Numbered from the stretch's first letter, positions 2,996 through 60,708 are shown. The stretch: DNA of 60,761 nt from a virus (IMGVR_UViG_3300009514_000027:1-60761), one strand, 5' to 3'. The notes: generated by a model not told the origin, from the letters alone. Numbers and translations: made by a program.

Positions 2996-3567
2996 TGGGA
3001 CTATTAGTATTTGAAGGCAGTAAACTGGAGGTAACTCCTGAAACATTAACCATAGGTCCGTTCAAGACTATTTGGAATAGGGACAAGAGTAAGGGTAAAG
3101 AGATGGCTCTTGCAGAACTTGCATATGTTTACTATGCTGCAGACTTTAAATCTATATATAAGAATATCCCTATAGATGAAAGAGAGGATAGAATAGTACA
3201 GGATGTATTTGAAGGAAAGAAATGGAAGGCAGATATTGTTATAAAGAAGGCTATAGAGAAGTATAAGGAGTTGAACTTCTCTCAGACTATGGGACTATTG
3301 GAAGATGCAGAAGGAGCTATAGAGAAAGTACGTTCTTACCTTCGTGAGGTAGACCTTATGGAGACAGACAATAGTGGTAAACCTATCTATTCTGCTAAGG
3401 ATTTGATGGCAAACCTTAAAGGTCTTGGAGAGGTCGTAGCAGGTATCAAGAAACTAAAGGATGAGGTAGCTAAAGAGGTTAATGATAGTTCTACTATTAA
3501 GGGAGGAAATACTTTAGGGGCATTTGAAGACCCTGATTTTATAGATAGTGATGAAGACGATGGATAG
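2995..3567 (+). CDS. terS: putative terminase small subunit
   Basis: 190 residues, mostly helical. The conserved-looking N-terminal stretch has GPFKTIWNRDKSKGKEMA, the middle is a long helix pair, and the tail is acidic (SDEDDG). Crassvirales genomes carry a protein of this size and start directly before the large terminase (family knowledge), which makes TerS the best guess. No HTH is obvious. The 3' end overlaps the large-terminase start by up to 20 nt. Confidence 0.5.
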   Translation: MGLLVFEGSKLEVTPETLTIGPFKTIWNRDKSKGKEMALAELAYVYYAADFKSIYKNIPIDEREDRIVQDVFEGKKWKADIVIKKAIEKYKELNFSQTMGLLEDAEGAIEKVRSYLREVDLMETDNSGKPIYSAKDLMANLKGLGEVVAGIKKLKDEVAKEVNDSSTIKGGNTLGAFEDPDFIDSDEDDG

Positions 3568-6500
3568 GTATTTCAAAAATACAGAGAATTTTAGGGAGGC
3601 AGCTCTTACCTACAAAGAAACGGGTAAGTTTTGTCCTTATCCCGTGAATTTCCACAGGAACTCTCAGTATATGAAGTTCTGGAAAGAGCAGGAGAAGCGT
3701 TCTTTAAGAGGTTATACTAGTAATGGTATTTCTATTACTGGATATCACTATTTCTATATGAATTTCTCACAAATATATATTGTAGTTTTTGATAAAAATT
3801 CTGTATCAGGAAAAGGAGGAAAAATAGTAGGAGAAAGGATATTAGATTTTCCAAGATTTTGGGACTCTGACTATGATTATTATTGGTACATAGAAGATGC
3901 TGAGAAGCAAGGAGAGCACGGGTCTGTATTAAAGTGCAGGGGTCGTGGGTATAGCTTCAAGGCTGCATCTATGTTAAACAGGAACTACTTTCTTATACCA
4001 GGAAGTAGGAATTATGCAGTAGCCTACGAGAAGGAGTACTTGACAAAGGAGGGGCTGCTGTCTAAGACCTGGGAAATGATGGATTTTGTCAATGAGCAGA
4101 CAGCTTGGGGCAAGAAACGTCAGTTCAAGAACAGTGACATGCATAGGAGGGCTTCCTATGAAGCTAATATAGGAGGAGTAAAGGTAGAGAAAGGCTATAA
4201 ATCGGAGATTATAGGAATCTCACTCAAGGATAATCCTCAGAAGATAAGGGGTAAGAGAGGAAAGCTGATATTGTTTGAGGAAGCAGGGATGTTTCCTGGG
4301 ATGTTAACAGCTTGGCAAATTGCCCGTTCTTCTATGGAACAAGGAAACATTGCTTTCGGTCAAATGCTTGCCTTTGGTACTGGTGGGTGTGTTTGTGCAG
4401 GAACAAAAGTATGGACAAGTTCAGGAGACCTTATAAACATAGAAGATTTAAAAAAAGAACAGGGAATTTTAGGTTATAGTGGAAATAGTGTTTCTAAAGA
4501 ACCTATTTCTTATTGGCAAAAACCTACAAAAAAATTATGTTATAGAATTACTACAAATACAGGAAGATTTTTGGAATGCAGTAAAGACCATCCTATCTTA
4601 AAAGCAGACGAGGAGAAAAAATTGTTTATTAATAAAAAAGTTTTTGTAAAAACCTCTACTTTAAAAGTAAATGATTTAATTGCTACTATAGAAGAAGTTC
4701 CTATTTTTGGAAACAACCGTATGTGGAATCCCAGAATTATAGGGTGGTTAATAGGAGACGGTACTTATGGTAAAGACCAGACTCCTTGTCTAAGTAACTG
4801 TGAAGAAGAAATAAATTCTTTTATAGAAAAAAATCTTACCACAAGTCTTAGAAAACAGTATATTACAAAAACAGGAAAAACATACAAAGAAACACATTTA
4901 AAAAACTTATGTCCTATTTTAAGAGAACTTGGTATTTATACACAAACTAAGTTAGATAAAACACTTCCTACTAGTATACATTCTTATTGTAAGCAAGATA
5001 TTTGCGAACTACTTGGTGGATTATTTGATACAGACGGTTATGTATCTTACAGAACTAATAGAAAAAGAGGAAGTAAGGTAATAGAGATAGGTATTTCTCA
5101 AGCATCTTTAAAACTCATTATAGAAATACAGTTACTTCTACAAAAGATAGGAATACACGGAATTATTAGAAAAAGACTGCCGAGAAAAAATAACCCCATA
5201 GATAGAAACTGTTGGTATGAGTTTGTCATATCTGACAAACTAAGTTTATTATCTTTCTCAAAAAACATAAAACTTTTCATAAAAACTAAACAAGATAGGA
5301 TAGATAAAATAAACAGTCTTTATGGTGAAAAAAGGATATCAGCACTTAGAGGGGACGGTGTTAGGTTTGAACGTATAGTAAGTATTGAGAATATAGGTAT
5401 ACAAAACATATACAATCTTACCGCAGCTTTAACTAACACATATATAGCAAATGGCATAATTACACACAATACTAAAGGAGCTGACTTTATGGCACTTGAA
5501 GAATTGTTCTATAGTCCTGAAGGGTATAATGTCCACTCTGTTCCCAACATCTGGGATAAGGGTAGGGAGAATACCAAGTCAGGATTTTTTATTCCAGTTA
5601 CCAGTAACTATGAAGGATACTATGACGAGAATGGCAACTCTGACGTAGACTCTGTACTGAAGAAGGAAGAGATAAACAGGAATAAGGTAAGAGAGAACTC
5701 TACTAATATCTCTGTAGTTACTCAGTATATTGCTGAGAACTGTATCACTCCTGCTGAAGCTGTATTAAGGACTACAGGTACAATCTTTCCAATCAATGAC
5801 CTTAAAGAAAGACTCTATGAACTTGAGACTAACCAGAGGATTATGGACTCTGATTTTGTAGGAAGACTTTCTATAAATTCAAGTAGTGGTAAAGTGGAGT
5901 GGAAACCAGACCCAGAAGTAAAACCTATCTATGACTACCCTATAAAGAATAATAAAAATCTTGATGGTGCTATAGTTATTTATGAACACCCATTCAAGGA
6001 TGAATCCACCCAACAAATACCTTATGGGATGTATATTGGTGGATGTTTAACACCTGGTGAAAAAGTAGTTACAGATAAAGGACTAAAGAATGTAGAAGAT
6101 GTTACTCTTGAAGATAAACTTGTAAATAAAGAGGGAGAGTTTGTTAAGGTAATAAATTTACAACAAAGACAAAAAATAGACCACGACACTTATGAATTAA
6201 AGATGTCTGGTACTTATAGGACTACAAAATTTACTAGGGGACATCCTATCTATACTAGTAAAACTCCGTATAACAGTAATAAAACTATAAATGAAAAAGG
6301 TTTTGATTTTAAGTTTAATCGTGCAGATACTTTAGATGTAGGAGACTGGACAAAATATCCTAACATTTATAATAAAGAAATTAGTTTTGACACTGTAACT
6401 TTATGGAACAATGCCGGTTATAGAAAAGATAAGTTAATCTCTGACCCTTTATCCCATAAAGATTTTTGGTGGTTTGTTGGTTTATGGTTAGGGGACGGAT

Positions 6501-7867
6501 GTTGTTACAATGACAAGGTAAGTATTTCTTTTAATAAAAATGAAAAATACTATATAGACAAACTGGTTAATGTTATAAAAACATTATTTAATAGGAGTCC
6601 TCAATTAAATAACAACGGGGATAATTGTATTGAGTGTGCTTTTAATTTTCAACAACTGTGTAATTTTTTAGAAAAGTATTTTGGTAAATATGCACTAGGT
6701 AAGCATATTCCAGAGTGGGTAAAGTATGCTAAAAAGGAGTATAAAACTAGTATGGTATTAGGATATTTAGACTCTGATGGCTGTATAACAAAACACGTTA
6801 AAGGGTACTATTCTACAGAATTTGTTAGTATAAACTTAGAACTTCTTGAAGGATTTCAAGATATAATTTTTAGTCTTGGTATAGTTAGCAGTATAAGTAA
6901 ACTTAGAGAAGCAAAAAAAACCTATATAGTTGAAAGGGAAGTGTTACAAAAAGAATGTTACCATCTTCGTTTAGCCCATCATTCTAGCTTAGAGTTAGTA
7001 AATCAATTAGGAGATTATAACGATTTAAAAATAAAAAGAATAGATTTTAATAATCTTCCTGTATTAAGAGTACGTCCAAAAGATGGTTGTTTTTTAAGTC
7101 CTGATTTGAAGTATATTTATTTTCAAATTAGGGAAATAAAACATAGTTTGTATACAGGAACTGTTTATAACTTTGAATGTGAAACTCATAATTATGTGTC
7201 ACACCACGTCTCTCAGAAAAACTGTGATCCCTACGACCATGATGAATCTACAACAGATTCTTTAGGGTCTACTTTCATACTTAATTTACTTACTAATAGG
7301 ATAGTAGCTGAATATACAGGGAGACCTGCAACTGCTAGTCAGTATTATGAGAACGTAAGAAGATTACTAGTATATTACAATGCTGTATGTAACTATGAGA
7401 ACGCTCTTAAAGGAATGTTCACGTACTTTGATAATATGCATTGTGTACACTATCTGGCAGATACTCCAAAGTCACTTGTTGACCAGGAGTTGATGACCGA
7501 TAAGATGTTTAATAGGAAGAAAGGAACTCCAGCCAGTGAGGTTATAAATAAGTATGGAAGAGAGCTTACAAAGACATGGTTATTAGAACCTATTGTGGGA
7601 GAAGAGAATATTATGAACCTACACAGAATAAGGTCTATTCCTTTACTTAAAGAACTTATATACTGGAATAAGGATATTAACTGTGACCGTGTATCCGCTA
7701 TGGGTATGCTTATGATTCTTAAACAGGATGTGTTTAGATTCTTAGAGGATAGAAAGAAACCCATCAAACTTGTTACAGATGACCCATTATGGGACAGGGC
7801 ATATAAAGGAAATGGGGGAAAAAAGATAGAAGGGGAGGATTTAGGGACTAATTTACTGGTATGGTAA
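3548..7867 (+). CDS. terL: terminase large subunit precursor with two inteins
   Basis: 1439 codons, reduced to 685 residues after splicing, the normal size for a phage terminase ATPase-nuclease. A Walker A-like loop (KCRGRGYSFKA) lies near residue 129 and Walker B (LILFEEAG) near 239. The coupling motif FGTGG is followed, after intein 1, by TKGADF. The nuclease acidic motif DPYDHD comes directly after intein 2, and a C-terminal NCDRVSAMGML supplies a late nuclease Asp. The exteins rejoin as GTGG-TKGADF and YIGG-CDPYDHD, both typical terminase motifs. The first in-frame start is GTG 3548, but ATG 3551 or 3560 may be used. It is the last gene of the operon from 1005. Confidence 0.92.
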   Translation: MMKTMDRYFKNTENFREAALTYKETGKFCPYPVNFHRNSQYMKFWKEQEKRSLRGYTSNGISITGYHYFYMNFSQIYIVVFDKNSVSGKGGKIVGERILDFPRFWDSDYDYYWYIEDAEKQGEHGSVLKCRGRGYSFKAASMLNRNYFLIPGSRNYAVAYEKEYLTKEGLLSKTWEMMDFVNEQTAWGKKRQFKNSDMHRRASYEANIGGVKVEKGYKSEIIGISLKDNPQKIRGKRGKLILFEEAGMFPGMLTAWQIARSSMEQGNIAFGQMLAFGTGGCVCAGTKVWTSSGDLINIEDLKKEQGILGYSGNSVSKEPISYWQKPTKKLCYRITTNTGRFLECSKDHPILKADEEKKLFINKKVFVKTSTLKVNDLIATIEEVPIFGNNRMWNPRIIGWLIGDGTYGKDQTPCLSNCEEEINSFIEKNLTTSLRKQYITKTGKTYKETHLKNLCPILRELGIYTQTKLDKTLPTSIHSYCKQDICELLGGLFDTDGYVSYRTNRKRGSKVIEIGISQASLKLIIEIQLLLQKIGIHGIIRKRLPRKNNPIDRNCWYEFVISDKLSLLSFSKNIKLFIKTKQDRIDKINSLYGEKRISALRGDGVRFERIVSIENIGIQNIYNLTAALTNTYIANGIITHNTKGADFMALEELFYSPEGYNVHSVPNIWDKGRENTKSGFFIPVTSNYEGYYDENGNSDVDSVLKKEEINRNKVRENSTNISVVTQYIAENCITPAEAVLRTTGTIFPINDLKERLYELETNQRIMDSDFVGRLSINSSSGKVEWKPDPEVKPIYDYPIKNNKNLDGAIVIYEHPFKDESTQQIPYGMYIGGCLTPGEKVVTDKGLKNVEDVTLEDKLVNKEGEFVKVINLQQRQKIDHDTYELKMSGTYRTTKFTRGHPIYTSKTPYNSNKTINEKGFDFKFNRADTLDVGDWTKYPNIYNKEISFDTVTLWNNAGYRKDKLISDPLSHKDFWWFVGLWLGDGCCYNDKVSISFNKNEKYYIDKLVNVIKTLFNRSPQLNNNGDNCIECAFNFQQLCNFLEKYFGKYALGKHIPEWVKYAKKEYKTSMVLGYLDSDGCITKHVKGYYSTEFVSINLELLEGFQDIIFSLGIVSSISKLREAKKTYIVEREVLQKECYHLRLAHHSSLELVNQLGDYNDLKIKRIDFNNLPVLRVRPKDGCFLSPDLKYIYFQIREIKHSLYTGTVYNFECETHNYVSHHVSQKNCDPYDHDESTTDSLGSTFILNLLTNRIVAEYTGRPATASQYYENVRRLLVYYNAVCNYENALKGMFTYFDNMHCVHYLADTPKSLVDQELMTDKMFNRKKGTPASEVINKYGRELTKTWLLEPIVGEENIMNLHRIRSIPLLKELIYWNKDINCDRVSAMGMLMILKQDVFRFLEDRKKPIKLVTDDPLWDRAYKGNGGKKIEGEDLGTNLLVW
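4388..5470 (+). other. intein 1 in terminase (361 aa, LAGLIDADG)
   Basis: Runs from Cys281 (block A: CVCAGTKVW) to Asn641 (THN) of the precursor, with Thr as the +1 residue. Block B is seen as a CSKDHPIL stretch. Two homing-endonuclease motifs are present, IIGWLIGDG at 397-405 and LLGGLFDTDG at 488-497. It sits in the ATPase coupling motif between GTGG and TKGADF. The sequence is more AT-rich and lysine-rich than the extein, suggesting separate origin. Confidence 0.9.
6044..7222 (+). other. intein 2 in terminase (393 aa, LAGLIDADG)
   Basis: Runs from Cys833 (block A: CLTPGEKVVT) to Asn1225 (block G: HHVSQKN) of the precursor, followed by Cys +1. Endonuclease motifs are GLWLGDG at 978-984 and VLGYLDSDG at 1070-1078. 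The residue before the terminal Asn is Lys rather than the usual His, a variation known in some active inteins. The insertion point is one residue before the first catalytic Asp of the nuclease domain (CDPYDHD), so an unspliced precursor should be inactive as a nuclease. Confidence 0.9.
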
Positions 7868-32500: not shown

Positions 32501-33772
32501 CCTACAGAAACAACTATAAACACAGATTTAACAAGTGGAAAACACTTTGCTGCAAAAACTACAGCAGAGTTAGAAACAGAATTGTTTGACGTAGGAAGAG
32601 ACTATACAGGAGTGTCTCTTGAGGGAAATGGACTACAGACAGCTATTACCTTTTTTGCAGAGCCTTTTAATAAAAACTTTGTTGAGGAGTTTGATAATGA
32701 GGTATGGATATCCGAACACAAGATAAACGGGGAAGACGTAGACCAATGGAGGTCATTCTTAGACCTTAATGCTTTGCCAGTAGAAGGTATCTATGGACCT
32801 ATCAATAAGCTACAGGTTCTCAAAGACCAAGTATATTTTATACAGGATAAAGCATTTGGAAGACTTGTAATCAATCCAAGAGTTACAGTACCGTCTACAG
32901 AAGTAACCTTCTTACAGATAGGTACGGGGGGAGTACTTGATGACTATGAATATATCTCTACAGAGTATGGAAGTAAGCACCAGTCTGGTATTACTGCTTC
33001 TGACAGCTCTATATTCTTCTTTGACGTTATAAGAAAGAAGTTCTTACAGTATACACCCTCAAGTGGTATAAGCCCGCTATCAGAGATAAAAGGACTATCT
33101 TCATTCTTTAGTAATAACTTTACTGGGGGAATACAAACTAATGACAACACCATAGATACAAGTATCACTATGGGAGTAACAGCTACGTATGACTATAGAT
33201 TCTACGAAGCACTGTTTACCTTCTTTGATACTAAAGATTCTATAGCTTCTGCCTATACAGTAGCCTATAATGAGTTATTAGGGGCTTTTACTTCGTTCTA
33301 CAGCTTTACACCCTCAATGTATATCAATGATAAGCGACTGATATTATCGCCCAGCACAAGCGTTCCTACGCAGTTTTACAGGCATAACGCAGGGGAGTAT
33401 GGTGTATTCTATGATGGAACTCCTGTAGAATCGTTTATACAGGTATTGGCTAATAAAGACCCTCACGTAACTAAAGCCTTTACAAACATAGACTTTATGT
33501 CTGAGTGTTATGATTCTTCAGATGCAGACGTTATGGACGAGACAGTAGACTCTCTTAACATCTATAACGAGTATCAGAACACAGGTTTTATAACTCTCAC
33601 ACCTCCTAACAATGTACGTAAATTGTTCAGAACGTGGAGGATAGCTGTTCCCAGAGATACTCAAGGAGCAAGGATAAGAGGTCCTTATTGTAATATAGAA
33701 TTAGGGATAAGTAATGCTAATAATCGTAGATTTATTTTACACAATGTTAATACGTACTACCTGTATAGTTAA
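29546..33772 (+). CDS. large tail tube/nozzle protein (stabilisation protein type)
   Basis: 1408 residues. The N-terminus, with KGLNQDVAKPRASAESYTDASDIRV then EKGSSTGSVENILGN, matches the start of the large tail protein of crAss-like phages compared with P22 gp10 or T7 gp12 nozzle proteins. The body is beta-rich throughout with many Tyr, Asp and Gly, and two likely propeller-like repeats (for example QVYFIQDKAFGRLVINPR). It probably forms the barrel or nozzle of the short tail. It ends before a new promoter, closing the ring/tail unit. Confidence 0.7.
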   Translation: MDGFHTSSFLKGLNQDVAKPRASAESYTDASDIRVVTEKGSSTGSVENILGNKLFFEIPSVSAAYLIENPTFPFQATRPGADDYVDITSWTMTTTVTLTSSAGISVTVQLVNTSTQEGSTSIVDLATIIKDAISNNAILTANGVTVGVTSGSIKVYSNSGLLTSITSIISFTSTPIVANVTIPISVHVPQQDALIVIGWGVLRDTIVLFTTNDTTDDGGYGQIWSLVYDPANLDTYASAVLTLLYNENIGFTTKHLIESPCVCRYETTDIQRIYWTDNHNDVRSFNIADDESMFIDESLLNLEASVSFSKPIVKEVLSGGNLKAAYYQYAYRLKGTNGELTKFSIPSNTVHVFPESETTGLYQEYSLDFAWTTNTHKIVKVEISDIDADYDTIEVVSILLDGLSGTPTVSIIKELSIPENRVVTISHTGSEDNIPLTLEEYSIASFGFSKCKTLASKDNRLIAGNVTGYKFHNKRFNARAYRYRNYNGVIDTYVADGTLTGANAVDPINDTSISTANLDAVNPFNNASIDLIAANQYKYWADGTTLGGEGPNVSYRFITEELQGDKYTEAAYTSAQPVTAPFVDKVRSSKTMSVGGQDHPHVNTWYDFKSPYAEGTVKGYMRGEVYRFAIVLFDTKGKAGFAEWIGDIKFPEHYDSSNPWLEGDYIFATNYDTTTSSRLQQKLYSLGIEFSVKNLPTGISGYSIVRMPRGNADKTRLGTGVLNRFVLYKAHTSSFASNFFDPSFQELSESSFWNIRETDYSETVQNYSAGTDGPLAEKRFYSLDSPDFQLIGSPSFVAGDKIRIVGEIRDLVDNQITYTLPAREVKVQRFTTAATPYSFLEKDIVDSMPIGEGEKVTFQNIKFINSTLYLTGAAPTNTLFYDRSSKSLILHFQPFDLNDYVSGVGKHVKALASYIRPLQEQYGGATQVARSQNSYVYCGHFVRIDDHQDSQYVKVFGGDTYVTMYDYTKYQTSAGLNSQGIGMIFPTETTINTDLTSGKHFAAKTTAELETELFDVGRDYTGVSLEGNGLQTAITFFAEPFNKNFVEEFDNEVWISEHKINGEDVDQWRSFLDLNALPVEGIYGPINKLQVLKDQVYFIQDKAFGRLVINPRVTVPSTEVTFLQIGTGGVLDDYEYISTEYGSKHQSGITASDSSIFFFDVIRKKFLQYTPSSGISPLSEIKGLSSFFSNNFTGGIQTNDNTIDTSITMGVTATYDYRFYEALFTFFDTKDSIASAYTVAYNELLGAFTSFYSFTPSMYINDKRLILSPSTSVPTQFYRHNAGEYGVFYDGTPVESFIQVLANKDPHVTKAFTNIDFMSECYDSSDADVMDETVDSLNIYNEYQNTGFITLTPPNNVRKLFRTWRIAVPRDTQGARIRGPYCNIELGISNANNRRFILHNVNTYYLYS

Positions 33773-58029: not shown

Positions 58030-58224
58030 TTAAAAATCATTTTTCTTATGTAGTTTTTTAATTATCTTTACATGGGGCATTGAAAATTCAGATAGATAAA
58101 ACTTCTCTGCATAGTCATTATTACCTCCGTCTGTCCATCTAATTATATAAAATTCTCCTTTCTCTGTATCGAAATATACCTGATTATCTCTATTAGGTAT
58201 CATTCCTTCTGGTAAGTTTTTCAT
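58030..58224 (-). CDS. small protein, unknown
   Basis: 64 residues, beta-rich (VYFDTEKGEFYIIRWTD), with a basic helical end. First gene of the three-gene ordinary operon on this strand; the cassette-like array begins just upstream of it. No TAAC-type element follows its stop, unlike the five ORFs to the right. Family not recognised. Confidence 0.5.
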   Translation of the reverse strand: MKNLPEGMIPNRDNQVYFDTEKGEFYIIRWTDGGNNDYAEKFYLSEFSMPHVKIIKKLHKKNDF

Positions 58225-58246: not shown

Positions 58247-58302
58247 GCAAAAGTTAATAAGTATTCGGCACTATGTGTATAGCGTGTATTTACAAGTTAG
58301 GC
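58247..58302 (-). repeat. attC-like element E (half site), end of the array
   Basis: On the minus strand the element begins ACGCCTAAC, 6 nt after the stop of the 143-residue ORF; this equals RYYYAAC, the integron R'' core. An imperfect inner hairpin follows (ACACGCTAT with ATAGTG). The + strand text GTTAGGCGTA at 58296-58305 is an inverted copy of the sequence at 58698-58689 on the other side of the same ORF. No matching GTTRRRY core is seen further left. Confidence 0.45.
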
Positions 58303-58308
58303 GTAATT

Positions 58309-58740
58309 TTAGCGACCAGCCAACTGTTCAACATTGGAAGCGAAAATTATACCCTTATTGAATTGGTTTAAATCCATGTGGTTTCTATCACACATTTTAC
58401 CATTCTTACATCTTTCCACCATCACACCATGATTTTCTTTACACGGTATTATTCTAATTTCATCATATTCTAAATGTTCATATCCGCTTTCATGCGTTAT
58501 TTGAATTATTTTACCTTTAGAATAAACCGATACGAACTTACCTTTGCCAGTTGTGGGTATCATAGTTCCATTAAAACCGTCCATGTTAAAATTATGTATT
58601 TTAGAATAATACAATCTCTTTACATCACGTTTAAACCAACCAATCCAATATTTCCGCATCGACCATTTATACTTGAAGTTAAAAAAACTACGCCTAACAG
58701 CAAGTATATTCAATTGCGGTTTTTGTGCTTTATTTTCCAT
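58309..58740 (-). CDS. small basic protein in a cassette-like unit
   Basis: 143 residues as a maximal ORF; Lys/Tyr/Trp-rich N-terminal half and a Cys-containing C-terminal half (IIPCKENHG, RCKNGKMCDRNH) that might bind metal. The first 20 codons lie inside the attC-like element 58691-58826, so the true start could be a later Met, such as the one before RKYWIGW. It is flanked by inverted copies of GTTAGGCGTA, the mark of a gene cassette. Function unknown. Confidence 0.55.
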   Translation of the reverse strand: MENKAQKPQLNILAVRRSFFNFKYKWSMRKYWIGWFKRDVKRLYYSKIHNFNMDGFNGTMIPTTGKGKFVSVYSKGKIIQITHESGYEHLEYDEIRIIPCKENHGVMVERCKNGKMCDRNHMDLNQFNKGIIFASNVEQLAGR

Positions 58741-58826
58741 TTATTTAAGTTATTTAAGTTATTACTAATTTGAAAGTATTATTCGTTTAAGTCCGCAACT
58801 AAATATACTTGCGAACCGTTATAAGC
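58691..58826 (-). repeat. attC-like element D with two 20-nt arms
   Basis: Arms at 58700-58719 and 58793-58812 are inverted repeats with 18 of 20 matches. The two differences become G-T pairs on the minus strand, so the single minus strand can pair along all 20 nt. Outside the arms lie GCCTAAC (58692-58698) and GTTATAAGC (58818-58826), matching the R''/R' box positions of integron recombination sites. The 73-nt spacer between the arms would be the loop region. Confidence 0.55.
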
Positions 58827-58842
58827 AAAGTTTAAACCCCGC

Positions 58843-59046
58843 CTACGCACGGAGTTCTTTTGCAGATGGCTCAAAGTAGCACATAGTCAAAGCAACTAAA
58901 TGTTTTCTACCTGTTTTTTCGGTTAGTTCCTTTGCCTTCTTCTTTGCTTCATCCTCTGTTCTAAACCAATCCTCGTATTGATGAGGATAGTCAGTTAATA
59001 CGAGCCATCTTTGCTCTTTTTTTGGTTCTGCTTTTGTCTTTGCCAT
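58843..59046 (-). CDS. small protein in a cassette-like unit
   Basis: 67 residues with a Lys-rich start, then WLVLTDYPHQYEDWFRTEDEAKKKAKEL, a short beta-alpha fold of the type seen in small phage or cassette proteins. The unit has terminal inverted repeats: GTTATAAGCAAAG...AAACCCC at 58818-58840 is an inverted relative of GCTATAAGATAG...AACCCC at 59104-59084. No domain recognised. Confidence 0.5.
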   Translation of the reverse strand: MAKTKAEPKKEQRWLVLTDYPHQYEDWFRTEDEAKKKAKELTEKTGRKHLVALTMCYFEPSAKELRA

Positions 59047-59083
59047 TTTATTTGTTTTTACAGTTAATAATGCCCTCGCAAAA

Positions 59084-59121
59084 GGGGTTTTACTATCTTA
59101 TAGCCCCGATACGTTACCTGC
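59084..59121 (-). repeat. attC-like element C (short)
   Basis: The minus-strand core GCAGGTAAC (59121-59113) contains the stop codon of the 92-residue ORF. A hairpin GGGG/CCCC (59107-59104 with 59087-59084) follows. The stretch CTTATAGC (59097-59104) resembles the core of element D on the opposite strand. It is much shorter than a usual attC, so it may be a remnant or a deletion product. Confidence 0.35.
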
Positions 59122-59392
59122 CGTGCCCCGACAAATCAATCGGACTATCCCAATCTAACACCTCGATATTTTTATCAAGCACGGAAAGTTTGCCATTGCT
59201 ACTTAGCATTATCAGACATTGAGATATTCCCCTTTGCATCCTTTCGTTTGTTATTACCTGTTTAATCGTTCCATCGCTAAACTTTCCTAATAGCAGGAAA
59301 TTCTTTAATGATGGCATGGCAGGTAGCAAGGGCTTTACAAAACCCGCAACAGTGGTAGTTTTGGCTTTTGTGTTTTTAATTTTCTTCTTCAT
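59114..59392 (-). CDS. small protein in a cassette-like unit
   Basis: 92 residues as a maximal ORF. A Lys-rich start is followed by a hydrophobic/proline stretch that falls in element B, then a compact domain from about residue 27 (PSLKNFLLLGKFSDGTIKQV). The true start may be the internal Met before that Pro, because the DNA before it belongs to a recombination-site-like element. Its stop TAA is part of the GCAGGTAAC core of element C. Unknown function. Confidence 0.45.
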   Translation of the reverse strand: MKKKIKNTKAKTTTVAGFVKPLLPAMPSLKNFLLLGKFSDGTIKQVITNERMQRGISQCLIMLSSNGKLSVLDKNIEVLDWDSPIDLSGHGR

Positions 59393-59451
59393 AGTTTTAC
59401 AGTTTAGTGTTATTTAATGTGGGCTTCGCCAAGCCCGATAATGTTATGTGC
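59313..59451 (-). repeat. attC-like element B
   Basis: On the minus strand GCACATAAC (59451-59443) stands 4 nt after the stop of the zinc-ribbon ORF. GGGCTT/AAGCCC (59421-59436) forms a hairpin just inside. The other end carries GCTACCTGCC (59327-59318). The 15 bases at 59313-59327 are an inverted copy (13 of 15) of 59113-59127 on the far side of the 92-residue ORF. The span of 139 nt is close to the 136 nt of element D. Confidence 0.4.
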
Positions 59452-59455
59452 AAGG

Positions 59456-59728
59456 CTACCATTCTCCTCCGTATTGGGCTGCATCCGCTTCTGCCTGTCC
59501 TTGTGCATTTTGTTCTGCTTCATATCTTGCTTGGTCGGCTTGGGCTTCTTGTTCTGCCTGTTCTTTTGCCATTTGCTCCTCTGCCCATTGTTGGTAGTGT
59601 CCATCGCTTCCATGATTAATGTCGCCCATACACATTGAGCAGATACTTTGTCCGTCAGGCACGGATGAGCCACATTGTGAACATTGTCTCATTTTGTTTT
59701 TCAATTTAACTTTAGTTTCGTTTTCCAT
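59456..59728 (-). CDS. zinc-ribbon protein with helical tail
   Basis: 90 residues. Residues 15-33 form a CxxC...CxxC zinc ribbon (CSQCG and CSMCM, 14 residues apart). The rest is a Gln/Ala/Glu-rich helix likely to be a coiled coil, ending YGGEW. It may be a small nucleic-acid or protein-binding adaptor. It lies between elements A and B of the cassette-like array. Confidence 0.6.
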   Translation of the reverse strand: MENETKVKLKNKMRQCSQCGSSVPDGQSICSMCMGDINHGSDGHYQQWAEEQMAKEQAEQEAQADQARYEAEQNAQGQAEADAAQYGGEW

Positions 59729-59754
59729 AGTGTATTTAGTTTAATTTTTTCGTA

Positions 59755-59783
59755 CCACCCCAAGCCAAGAGCCGTTAGCGTAT
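59755..59783 (-). repeat. attC-like element A (core only)
   Basis: The minus-strand core ACGCTAACGG (59782-59773) includes the TAA stop of the fibre ORF. It is followed by GCTCTTGGCTTGGGG without a clear paired arm. It shares the TAAC core and the position at an ORF end with elements B to E, and this sharing is the reason for listing it. Confidence 0.35.
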
Positions 59784-60587
59784 TTGTTGTCCTAAAATAT
59801 TATAAATTTCTATATATTGAAAATTATCTGCTTTCTTACATTTACAATAAGTAATCTTTGAATATGCAAAAGCTCCATCATAATCCACTTGTTTAAGCCT
59901 AAAATAGGCTGAAATACAGTCTACGGAGTAGTCATACCACCTTTGGGTAGAACTCGTGCCAGAACCGCTTATTTTAACTAAATTTGCCCATTCTTCTATA
60001 TTTACGCTTTTTTGGACTATAAAATAGTCGTTATTGACTTCTGATGCTGTACTCCATTGTAGTACTTGTCTTGCACAATTAAAAAATAACAGTTCTATTG
60101 GTAAAGGAGTAGTATTTATGAAATAGGGGCAAAAAGTTACAAATCCATTACATCCTCCTCCTCCCCAAGCCCTCATTCTATAACAAAGAGTATAGTTTGC
60201 CCCTGTTGTTAGTCCTGAATATGATAATCCTGTACTGATAAAAGTACAGGAGTTGTCATAAAGATTATAAGGTCCAAAGGATTTATTATTACAGTTAGTA
60301 GAATTTCCTGCGTCTGCAAGTATATCTGTTCCTGCCGCAGCCAGTGATAGAAGTCCTGTTGAAGCTAATCTTAGACCTGTGTCCGCATCTGATTCGAATG
60401 CATAAGATGGAACTGCAACTGAACCTGTGCCTGCTTGAACTGTATCACCGGCGTTGGTAGGTGATAGTATTGTACCTGTTCTTACCCACTCAACGTTATA
60501 GGTAGAACCACTTCCGGCTTCTGTCAGGTCATCCCAGCTAGAACCATTGTAGAAGTATATATTAGTTCCATCGCTGAATATGTCCAA
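59775..60587 (-). CDS. fibre protein with T9SS-cargo-like C-terminal domain, both ends at core sites
   Basis: 270 residues from TTG 60587; no ATG lies upstream before a stop. Residues 1-110 are fibre-like (DIFSDGTNIYFYNGSSWDDL, SYAFESDADTGLRLAS). From about 165 the sequence LPIELLFF, LQWSTASEVNNDYFIVQKS and FRLKQVDYDGAFAYSK closely resembles the domain before the sorting tail of Bacteroidota type IX-secreted proteins. It ends at ILGQQIR, where such proteins normally continue. The 5' end begins in GTTGGAC (a GTTRRRY core) and the 3' stop lies in element A, so this is probably a module cut by cassette boundaries. Confidence 0.6.
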   Translation of the reverse strand: MDIFSDGTNIYFYNGSSWDDLTEAGSGSTYNVEWVRTGTILSPTNAGDTVQAGTGSVAVPSYAFESDADTGLRLASTGLLSLAAAGTDILADAGNSTNCNNKSFGPYNLYDNSCTFISTGLSYSGLTTGANYTLCYRMRAWGGGGCNGFVTFCPYFINTTPLPIELLFFNCARQVLQWSTASEVNNDYFIVQKSVNIEEWANLVKISGSGTSSTQRWYDYSVDCISAYFRLKQVDYDGAFAYSKITYCKCKKADNFQYIEIYNILGQQIR

Positions 60588-60708
60588 CGGCAGGCCTTTA
60601 CAGTCCTATTATTCTGAACTGGAATTGGAAAGAGTGCGGTCTCTTAACCAGTACGATATGAAACTCTACCGGTTCGTTAAAAGACGCCTGCAGAATACAG
60701 CAGAGTGA
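60580..60708 (+). CDS. short ORF, doubtful
   Basis: 42 codons with protein-like composition (SYYSELELERVRSLNQYD, then a basic end VKRRLQNTAE). It overlaps the 5' end of the fibre ORF on the opposite strand by 8 nt, right at the GTCCAAC/GTTGGAC core. It could be the true end of a + strand gene interrupted by the array, or chance. Confidence 0.3.
   Translation: MSNGRPLQSYYSELELERVRSLNQYDMKLYRFVKRRLQNTAE

Follow-up and report, generated by a model that had tools for sequence, protein, structure and literature searches.

The linear 60,761-base fragment analysed here, recorded as a virus in IMG/VR (IMGVR_UViG_3300009514_000027) and called the window in the following, very probably carries at 58.3-59.8 kb a small, partly decayed integron-type cassette cluster, which is likely served by a tyrosine recombinase acting in trans. 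It belongs to the clusters of attC sites lacking an integrase (CALINs), defined by at least two attC sites within a few kb and no intI: two sites lie 0.5 kb apart, and neither TIGR02249 nor PF00589 has a match in the window. No tyrosine recombinase is present in it, although the missing part of this linear fragment could hold one. The array therefore is not a complete integron, in which intI and attI lie beside the cassettes.

The phage itself is crAss-like (Crassvirales), as judged by the type of its portal (PHROG 6547, 6e-142) and its capsid (PHROG 11589, 5e-97). The capsid shows 35-39% identity to those of crAss-like phage records.

attC sites in the window

We used an attC left arm from a second phage contig, IMGVR_UViG_3300020492_000001 (76,304 bp, subsequently referred to as L002), as a search pattern (CATAACGGTTTGCAGCT). 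It was found in 113 stretches in 84,980 species genomes, mostly of Bacteroidota, and, when shortened by one base, in 70 stretches in IMG/VR. Most of these stretches are followed downstream by a matching right arm, whose spacer measures exactly 1 nt. Our own covariance model, R2, comprises 38 sites of about 132 nt each, taken from bacterial genome contigs only (mainly Bacteroidota). Its helix has a covariation score of 0.421 versus 0.111 for shuffled alignments, with 157 versus 52 double changes. A model of the arms alone (R1) was discarded, since its span was too short and it missed known sites.

Run unfiltered on the window, R2 finds two sites:

58692..58824, minus strand: complete attC, made up of the attC of the 67-aa cassette and the R' of the 143-aa cassette; 73.5 bits, E 9.7e-16, with a 20-bp stem
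59321..59449, minus strand: diverged attC, made up of the attC of the 90-aa cassette and the R' (GCTACCT) of the 92-aa cassette; 28.5 bits, E 8.2e-5

No other R2 match above 12.3 bits occurs in the 60.7 kb, except on the reverse strand of the first site, and an Rfam scan of 50-60.7 kb gave nothing relevant. Read on the minus strand from 58824 to 58692, the first site consists of R'' (TTATAAC), the spacer GGTTC, L'' (GCAAGTATATTTAGTTGCGG), a loop, L' (CCGCAATTGAATATACTTGC), the spacer T and R' (GTTAGGC). R'' and R' (RYYYAAC...GTTRRRY) bracket an imperfect L''/L' stem, which is the architecture of an attC site. The 20-nt arms at 58700-58719 and 58793-58812 pair fully, two G-T pairs included, as had been noted for 58691-58826 in an initial annotation made from the sequence. 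Folded as single-stranded DNA, the two sites have z values of -2.0 (58692-58824) and -2.37 (59321-59449). The attC family to which they belong is characterized by a left spacer of 5 nt, a right spacer of 1 nt, a mismatch that follows the third pair of the L stem and a usual length of about 130 nt. In an even sample of Bacteroidota, R2 sites (E <=1e-6) were present in 71 of 148 genomes.

The initial annotation had proposed an attC-like array without its own integrase and had suggested a covariance model as a check. The model matches twice, in the predicted place and on the predicted strand, and the window is free of tyrosine recombinases; the number of full sites, however, is two and not five. 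R2 detects no site at the 270/90-aa junction, at the 92/67-aa junction or at the 3' border of the 143-aa cassette. These are bare cores, which individually are not significant.

Cassettes and their exchange between phages

Five open reading frames (ORFs) of 270, 90, 92, 67 and 143 aa follow each other on the minus strand at the right end of the window, and each stops at a TAAC element. The units are bounded as follows:

59774..59780, minus strand: R''-like core CGCTAAC at the stop of the 270-aa ORF (270/90-aa junction), the 5' border of the array; no full site and no covariance model match
59443..59728, minus strand: zinc-ribbon-like 90-aa ORF (59456-59728) and its R'' ACATAAC (element CACATAAC, core 59443-59449); Pfam zinc-ribbon matches below cut-off
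59113..59327, minus strand: cassette with the 92-aa ORF, from R' GCTACCT (59321-59327, placed by the covariance model) to R'' AGGTAAC (59113-59119); the ORF ends at the bare core GCAGGTAAC (59113-59121, 92/67-aa junction)
58818..59104, minus strand: cassette with the 67-aa ORF, from the R'-like GCTATAAG (59097-59104) to TTATAAC (58818-58824), the R'' of the full site
58296..58698, minus strand: 403-bp cassette with the 143-aa ORF, from the R' core GTTAGGC to its own R'' GCCTAAC (58296-58302, a bare core)
58309..58740, minus strand: listed extent of the 143-aa ORF; the homologue in L002 is 85% identical

The 143-aa unit provides the clearest case. It is also found in L002, with 83.6% nucleotide identity, and in the alignment of the two phages the identity climbs at GTTAGGC and ends at GCCTAAC, while the neighbouring sequences are unrelated. 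The ORFs that precede the unit are unrelated as well, and the attC in front of it shows no more than family-level identity (75%, as high as to attC sites of other contigs). By this comparison, the 143-aa unit is a true cassette that appears to have been exchanged whole between phages at its cores, which is the kind of exchange at GTTA cores that the initial annotation had asked to be looked for. Two more core-bounded units are common to otherwise different phage contigs, one of 372 bp (L002/L134, 82.5%) and one of 414 bp (L137/L148, 91.8%). L002 has about 13 sites in a single array, and its portal is of the crAss type at a lower score. In the genome of the same phage (G047, C1:26951-29182, minus strand) we also noticed a portal-like frame with two TGA and one TAA codons, possibly due to introns, inteins or recoding.

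A second line of evidence comes from the ends of the cassettes. Over 67 pairs of neighbouring sites, R' agrees with the R'' of its own cassette at 4.78 of 6 variable positions; compared with the R'' that belongs to the same site, the agreement is 2.60 of 6, and after permutation 2.24 (standard deviation 0.15). The complementarity to a cassette's own R'', brought forward in the initial annotation as the sign of a cassette, thus holds throughout the family. In the window, the cassette start matches its own R'' at all 6 variable positions in the 143-aa and 92-aa units and at 4 of 6 in the 67-aa unit. The other features described at the outset, namely five unrelated minus-strand ORFs ending at TAAC elements and inverted copies at both ends of three units, are all present in the sequence. 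The inverted pairs are GTTAGGCGTA / TACGCCTAAC for the 143-aa unit (93% over 15 nt), GCTACCTGCC / GGCAGGTAAC for the 92-aa unit and, weaker, GCTATAAG / CTTATAAC for the 67-aa unit.

Not all ORF units can be taken over as cassettes in their listed form. The 143-aa and 92-aa units stand as cassettes, but both listed ORFs cross the R' core of their own cassette and start inside the preceding attC. The 143-aa ORF reads through R' as LNIL-AVRRS in both the window and L002, and its true start is uncertain; in the 92-aa cassette, an ATG directly follows R' (GCTACCTGCC|ATG) within the listed ORF. The R' side of the 67-aa cassette has no support from the R2 model. Of the attC downstream of the 143-aa cassette, nothing but R'' is left. 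We read this loss, together with the degenerate R' cores of the 67-aa and 92-aa cassettes, as site decay.

Sites of the same attC family are carried by the crAss-like contigs G047, G059, G061 and G087. The last of these (67 kb), one of the phages whose capsids are 63-74% identical to that of the window, has three sites with other genes, located beside a homologue of the 64-aa gene that adjoins the array in the window. Related phages differ in cassette content, so that simple inheritance together with the genome does not account for the units. The IMG/VR contigs are viral by the classification of that database; a terminase (PF03237) was matched in 6 of the 20 that bear attC sites.

Recombinases beside arrays of this family

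Among 46 genomes with the search pattern, one (G021, a metagenome-assembled genome of Bacteroidota) has a true IntI, and most others have recombinases that TIGR02249 matches strongly in two parts, leaving out the IntI-specific patch of the catalytic domain. We call these recombinases patch-less; they lack profile positions ~180-238 of TIGR02249 and score below its cut-off of 265 bits. Those beside arrays hence do not qualify as IntI. Their top-scoring family is NF040815 (XerA_Arch), annotated as 'tyrosine recombinase/integron integrase', with TIGR02249 among the next best. As a side observation, G021 carries cassettes of the same attC type at another locus (L041, near the pattern match at 5712-5728), and by eye their products resemble an OXA-type beta-lactamase and an SMR/Qac-type transporter.

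Within the same genome set, R2 sites lie within about 6 kb of 12 of 20 patch-less loci and of none of 20 Xer-type loci. In all 12 cases the array lies on the 3' side of the recombinase gene, with its transcription running towards that gene (L279, L281, L282, L283, L285-L287, L291, L292, L294, L295 and L297, mainly Bacteroidota). Among the matches listed, a family site is found within 15 kb of 15 of 31 patch-less recombinases and of 0 of 13 true IntI (Fisher p 0.0015), partial counts that cover recombinases of those genomes for which sites are listed. At all 15 loci with a nearby site the cassettes are oriented towards the recombinase, 13 being convergent and 2 upstream on the same strand.

Phage contigs of 21 to 276 kb hold eight patch-less recombinase genes (L246, L252, L249, L245, L253, L247, L244 and L248, on contigs G047, G048, G052, G054 (twice), G053, G078 and G062). 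For each of the eight, a site of the same orientation lies upstream, at most about 1.5 kb away; one of these sites is weak (E 0.009). The array on G048 (170 kb) has about 35 sites, listed from 77.8 to 114.9 kb, and the recombinase gene comes next at 115.7 kb. Phage and bacterial patch-less enzymes group together in a tree with moderate support (88/82), and the sole IntI row forms a long branch. The possibility that the patch-less enzymes are mere XerC or XerD was rejected, as the Xer loci have no sites nearby and three Xer proteins stand apart in the tree.

Weighing the alternatives

Several points weigh against a cassette cluster that is moved by a recombinase. The case for cassette recombination is one of sequence comparison throughout. 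Full sites make up two of the five elements, one of them weak, and the training sites of R2 were selected by a pattern, so that its left arm is over-fixed. The crAss-like relatives G092 (62 kb) and G081 (38 kb) and smaller fragments, with capsids likewise in the range of 63-74% identity and all of them partial, have no site. A BLAST comparison of phage with bacterial loci gave no common stretch of at least 190 nt and thus no common cassette. Finally, full-length IntI above the family cut-off occurs in 47 of the 148 Bacteroidota genomes and stays a candidate enzyme.

It is possible, though we consider it doubtful, that such a classical IntI, supplied by a Bacteroidota host, mobilizes the cassettes in trans, the nearby patch-less recombinases being bystanders. 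Besides the frequency of IntI in the phylum, G021 combines a true IntI with cassettes of this attC type elsewhere in its genome, and attC sites of virulent phages, among them one from a Polaribacter phage, were recombined by IntI1 once cloned (PMC9892861). The genome of that Polaribacter phage, however, gives a weak R2 match (18 bits, E 0.08), and proximity to listed sites is a feature of the patch-less enzymes and not of true IntI.

That the sites are an abundant dispersed repeat, similar to terminators or repetitive extragenic palindromes, which spreads by homologous recombination between its copies, and that the units are nothing but ordinary genes with such repeats on either side, seems improbable. 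The element is indeed widespread and forms hairpins, and the L137/L148 unit extends from R'' to R'', attC included. Repeats alone, however, do not predict that R' agrees in its variable bases with the R'' of the own cassette and not with that of the same site, nor tandem units on the same strand with small unrelated ORFs in a fixed geometry beside recombinases; moreover, the 143-aa unit of the window begins at R', with merely a family-like attC before it. Chance TAAC elements near stop codons in an AT-rich genome can practically be dismissed: they could account for the 270/90-aa and 92/67-aa junctions, and three of five elements lack model support, but the two model matches (E 1e-15 and 8e-5) have nothing comparable in the other 57 kb, which refutes chance for 58692-58824, and a core-bounded homologue exists in another phage.

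Proposed mechanism

An integron integrase recombines a folded single strand of attC, as is established for IntI, and the sites described here conform to attC biology in their architecture, their GTTA core and the end complementarity seen throughout the family. For the cassette cluster in the window, we propose that single cassettes, at least the 143-aa one, were obtained from a pool common to Bacteroidota and their phages. A trans-acting tyrosine recombinase, from the host or a co-infecting phage, would most likely recombine the folded single-stranded site at the GTTA core. We consider a patch-less IntI/XerA-like recombinase the best candidate, because this enzyme accompanies the arrays, a role suggested by its location; the alternative is a classical IntI. 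After receipt of the cassettes, the phage may have lost parts of the sites. The sequences show the sites, the cassette boundaries, the sharing of cassettes, the lack of a recombinase in the window and, elsewhere, attC arrays next to patch-less recombinases. We infer the single-strand mechanism and the acting enzyme, as well as the host range and a benefit from the cargo.

Comparison with known systems

Virulent phages have been reported to carry CALINs that IntI1 can use (Qi et al. 2023, PMC9892861). Those of Tetrasphaera phage TJE1, Polaribacter phage P12002L and Pseudoalteromonas phage PH101 resemble the window in having attC-bounded cassettes and no integrase, and their use in trans was proposed. 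In contrast to the window, crAss-like phages are not mentioned there, and the attC family is distinct, with the weak R2 match in P12002L.

With classical integrons (class 1, Vibrio superintegron), the window shares the order R''-L''-L'-R', the GTTR core, self-complementary cassette ends and small ORFs on the same strand. It differs from them by the lack of intI and attI and by spacers of 5 and 1 nt instead of about 5 and 5. Furthermore, the neighbouring recombinase in Bacteroidota is patch-less and adjoins the array at its 3' end, in contrast to classical intI at the attI (5') end. R2 gave no match on the class 1 integron loci tested.

XerCD-dif (pdif) modules of plasmids are small units flanked by tyrosine recombinase sites and have no dedicated recombinase; their sites are short and are recombined by XerC/XerD as double strands. 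The window likewise has small units between tyrosine recombinase sites and no dedicated enzyme, but its sites are long hairpins, and the attC family lacks an association with Xer (0/20 Xer loci).

For the patch-less members of the integron-like tyrosine recombinase subgroup, no cassette arrays are described in the available part of PMC8138268. In Bacteroidetes, IntegronFinder had reported In0 elements (IntI without cassettes) and later one complete integron, in Salinibacter ruber (PMC9024848). In our limited literature search, we came across no account, for either Bacteroidota or phages, of cassette arrays accompanied by a patch-less recombinase. As far as we searched, an attC family present in 71 of 148 Bacteroidota genomes, with arrays adjoining patch-less IntI/XerA-like recombinases, is new.

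Neighbouring genes and cargo

The 64-aa phage gene adjoining the array (58030..58224, minus strand) has 60% identity over 48 aa (tblastx) to G087 at ~32973-33116. On the other side, the 270-aa ORF, with phage homologues in L005-L007, looks like a tail-fibre-type gene and not a cassette. Its C-terminal half (59775-60305, minus strand) resembles a 298-aa phage protein (L005, 5749-6645), which has a signal-peptide-like start and an end that looks like a type IX secretion sorting domain.

Pfam and PHROG assigned no confident family to any of the four small products (90, 92, 67 and 143 aa). The 143-aa protein has no relatives in INPHARED phages or in the genome contigs, and IMG/VR contains none of the 67-aa protein, the 90-aa protein or the C-terminus of a 1951-aa protein. 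Matches of the 92-aa protein to two unrelated phage contigs of high G+C content (L003, L004) were taken as chance. Farther away, the large terminase ORF (1439 aa, window 3548-7867) by eye appears to contain two inteins.

Implications

The co-location of arrays and patch-less recombinases points to a non-classical cassette system, in which these recombinases would be the active enzymes. Bacteroidota and their phages, including crAss-like phages and contigs of up to 276 kb, probably use a second kind of integron, with a distinct attC family and patch-less IntI/XerA-like recombinases at the 3' end of the array, of which phages carry both complete versions, such as the array of the 170-kb contig G048 that ends in its recombinase, and recombinase-free clusters, such as that of the window. 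Among the ways in which bacteria capture genes, integron cassettes are one of the main ones. If the reading is true, an attC family that is widespread in Bacteroidota and phages and tied to a patch-less recombinase would question the requirement of the patch for attC hairpins. Phages would then trade single genes among themselves by way of site-specific cassettes, and these arrays would offer a ready test system.

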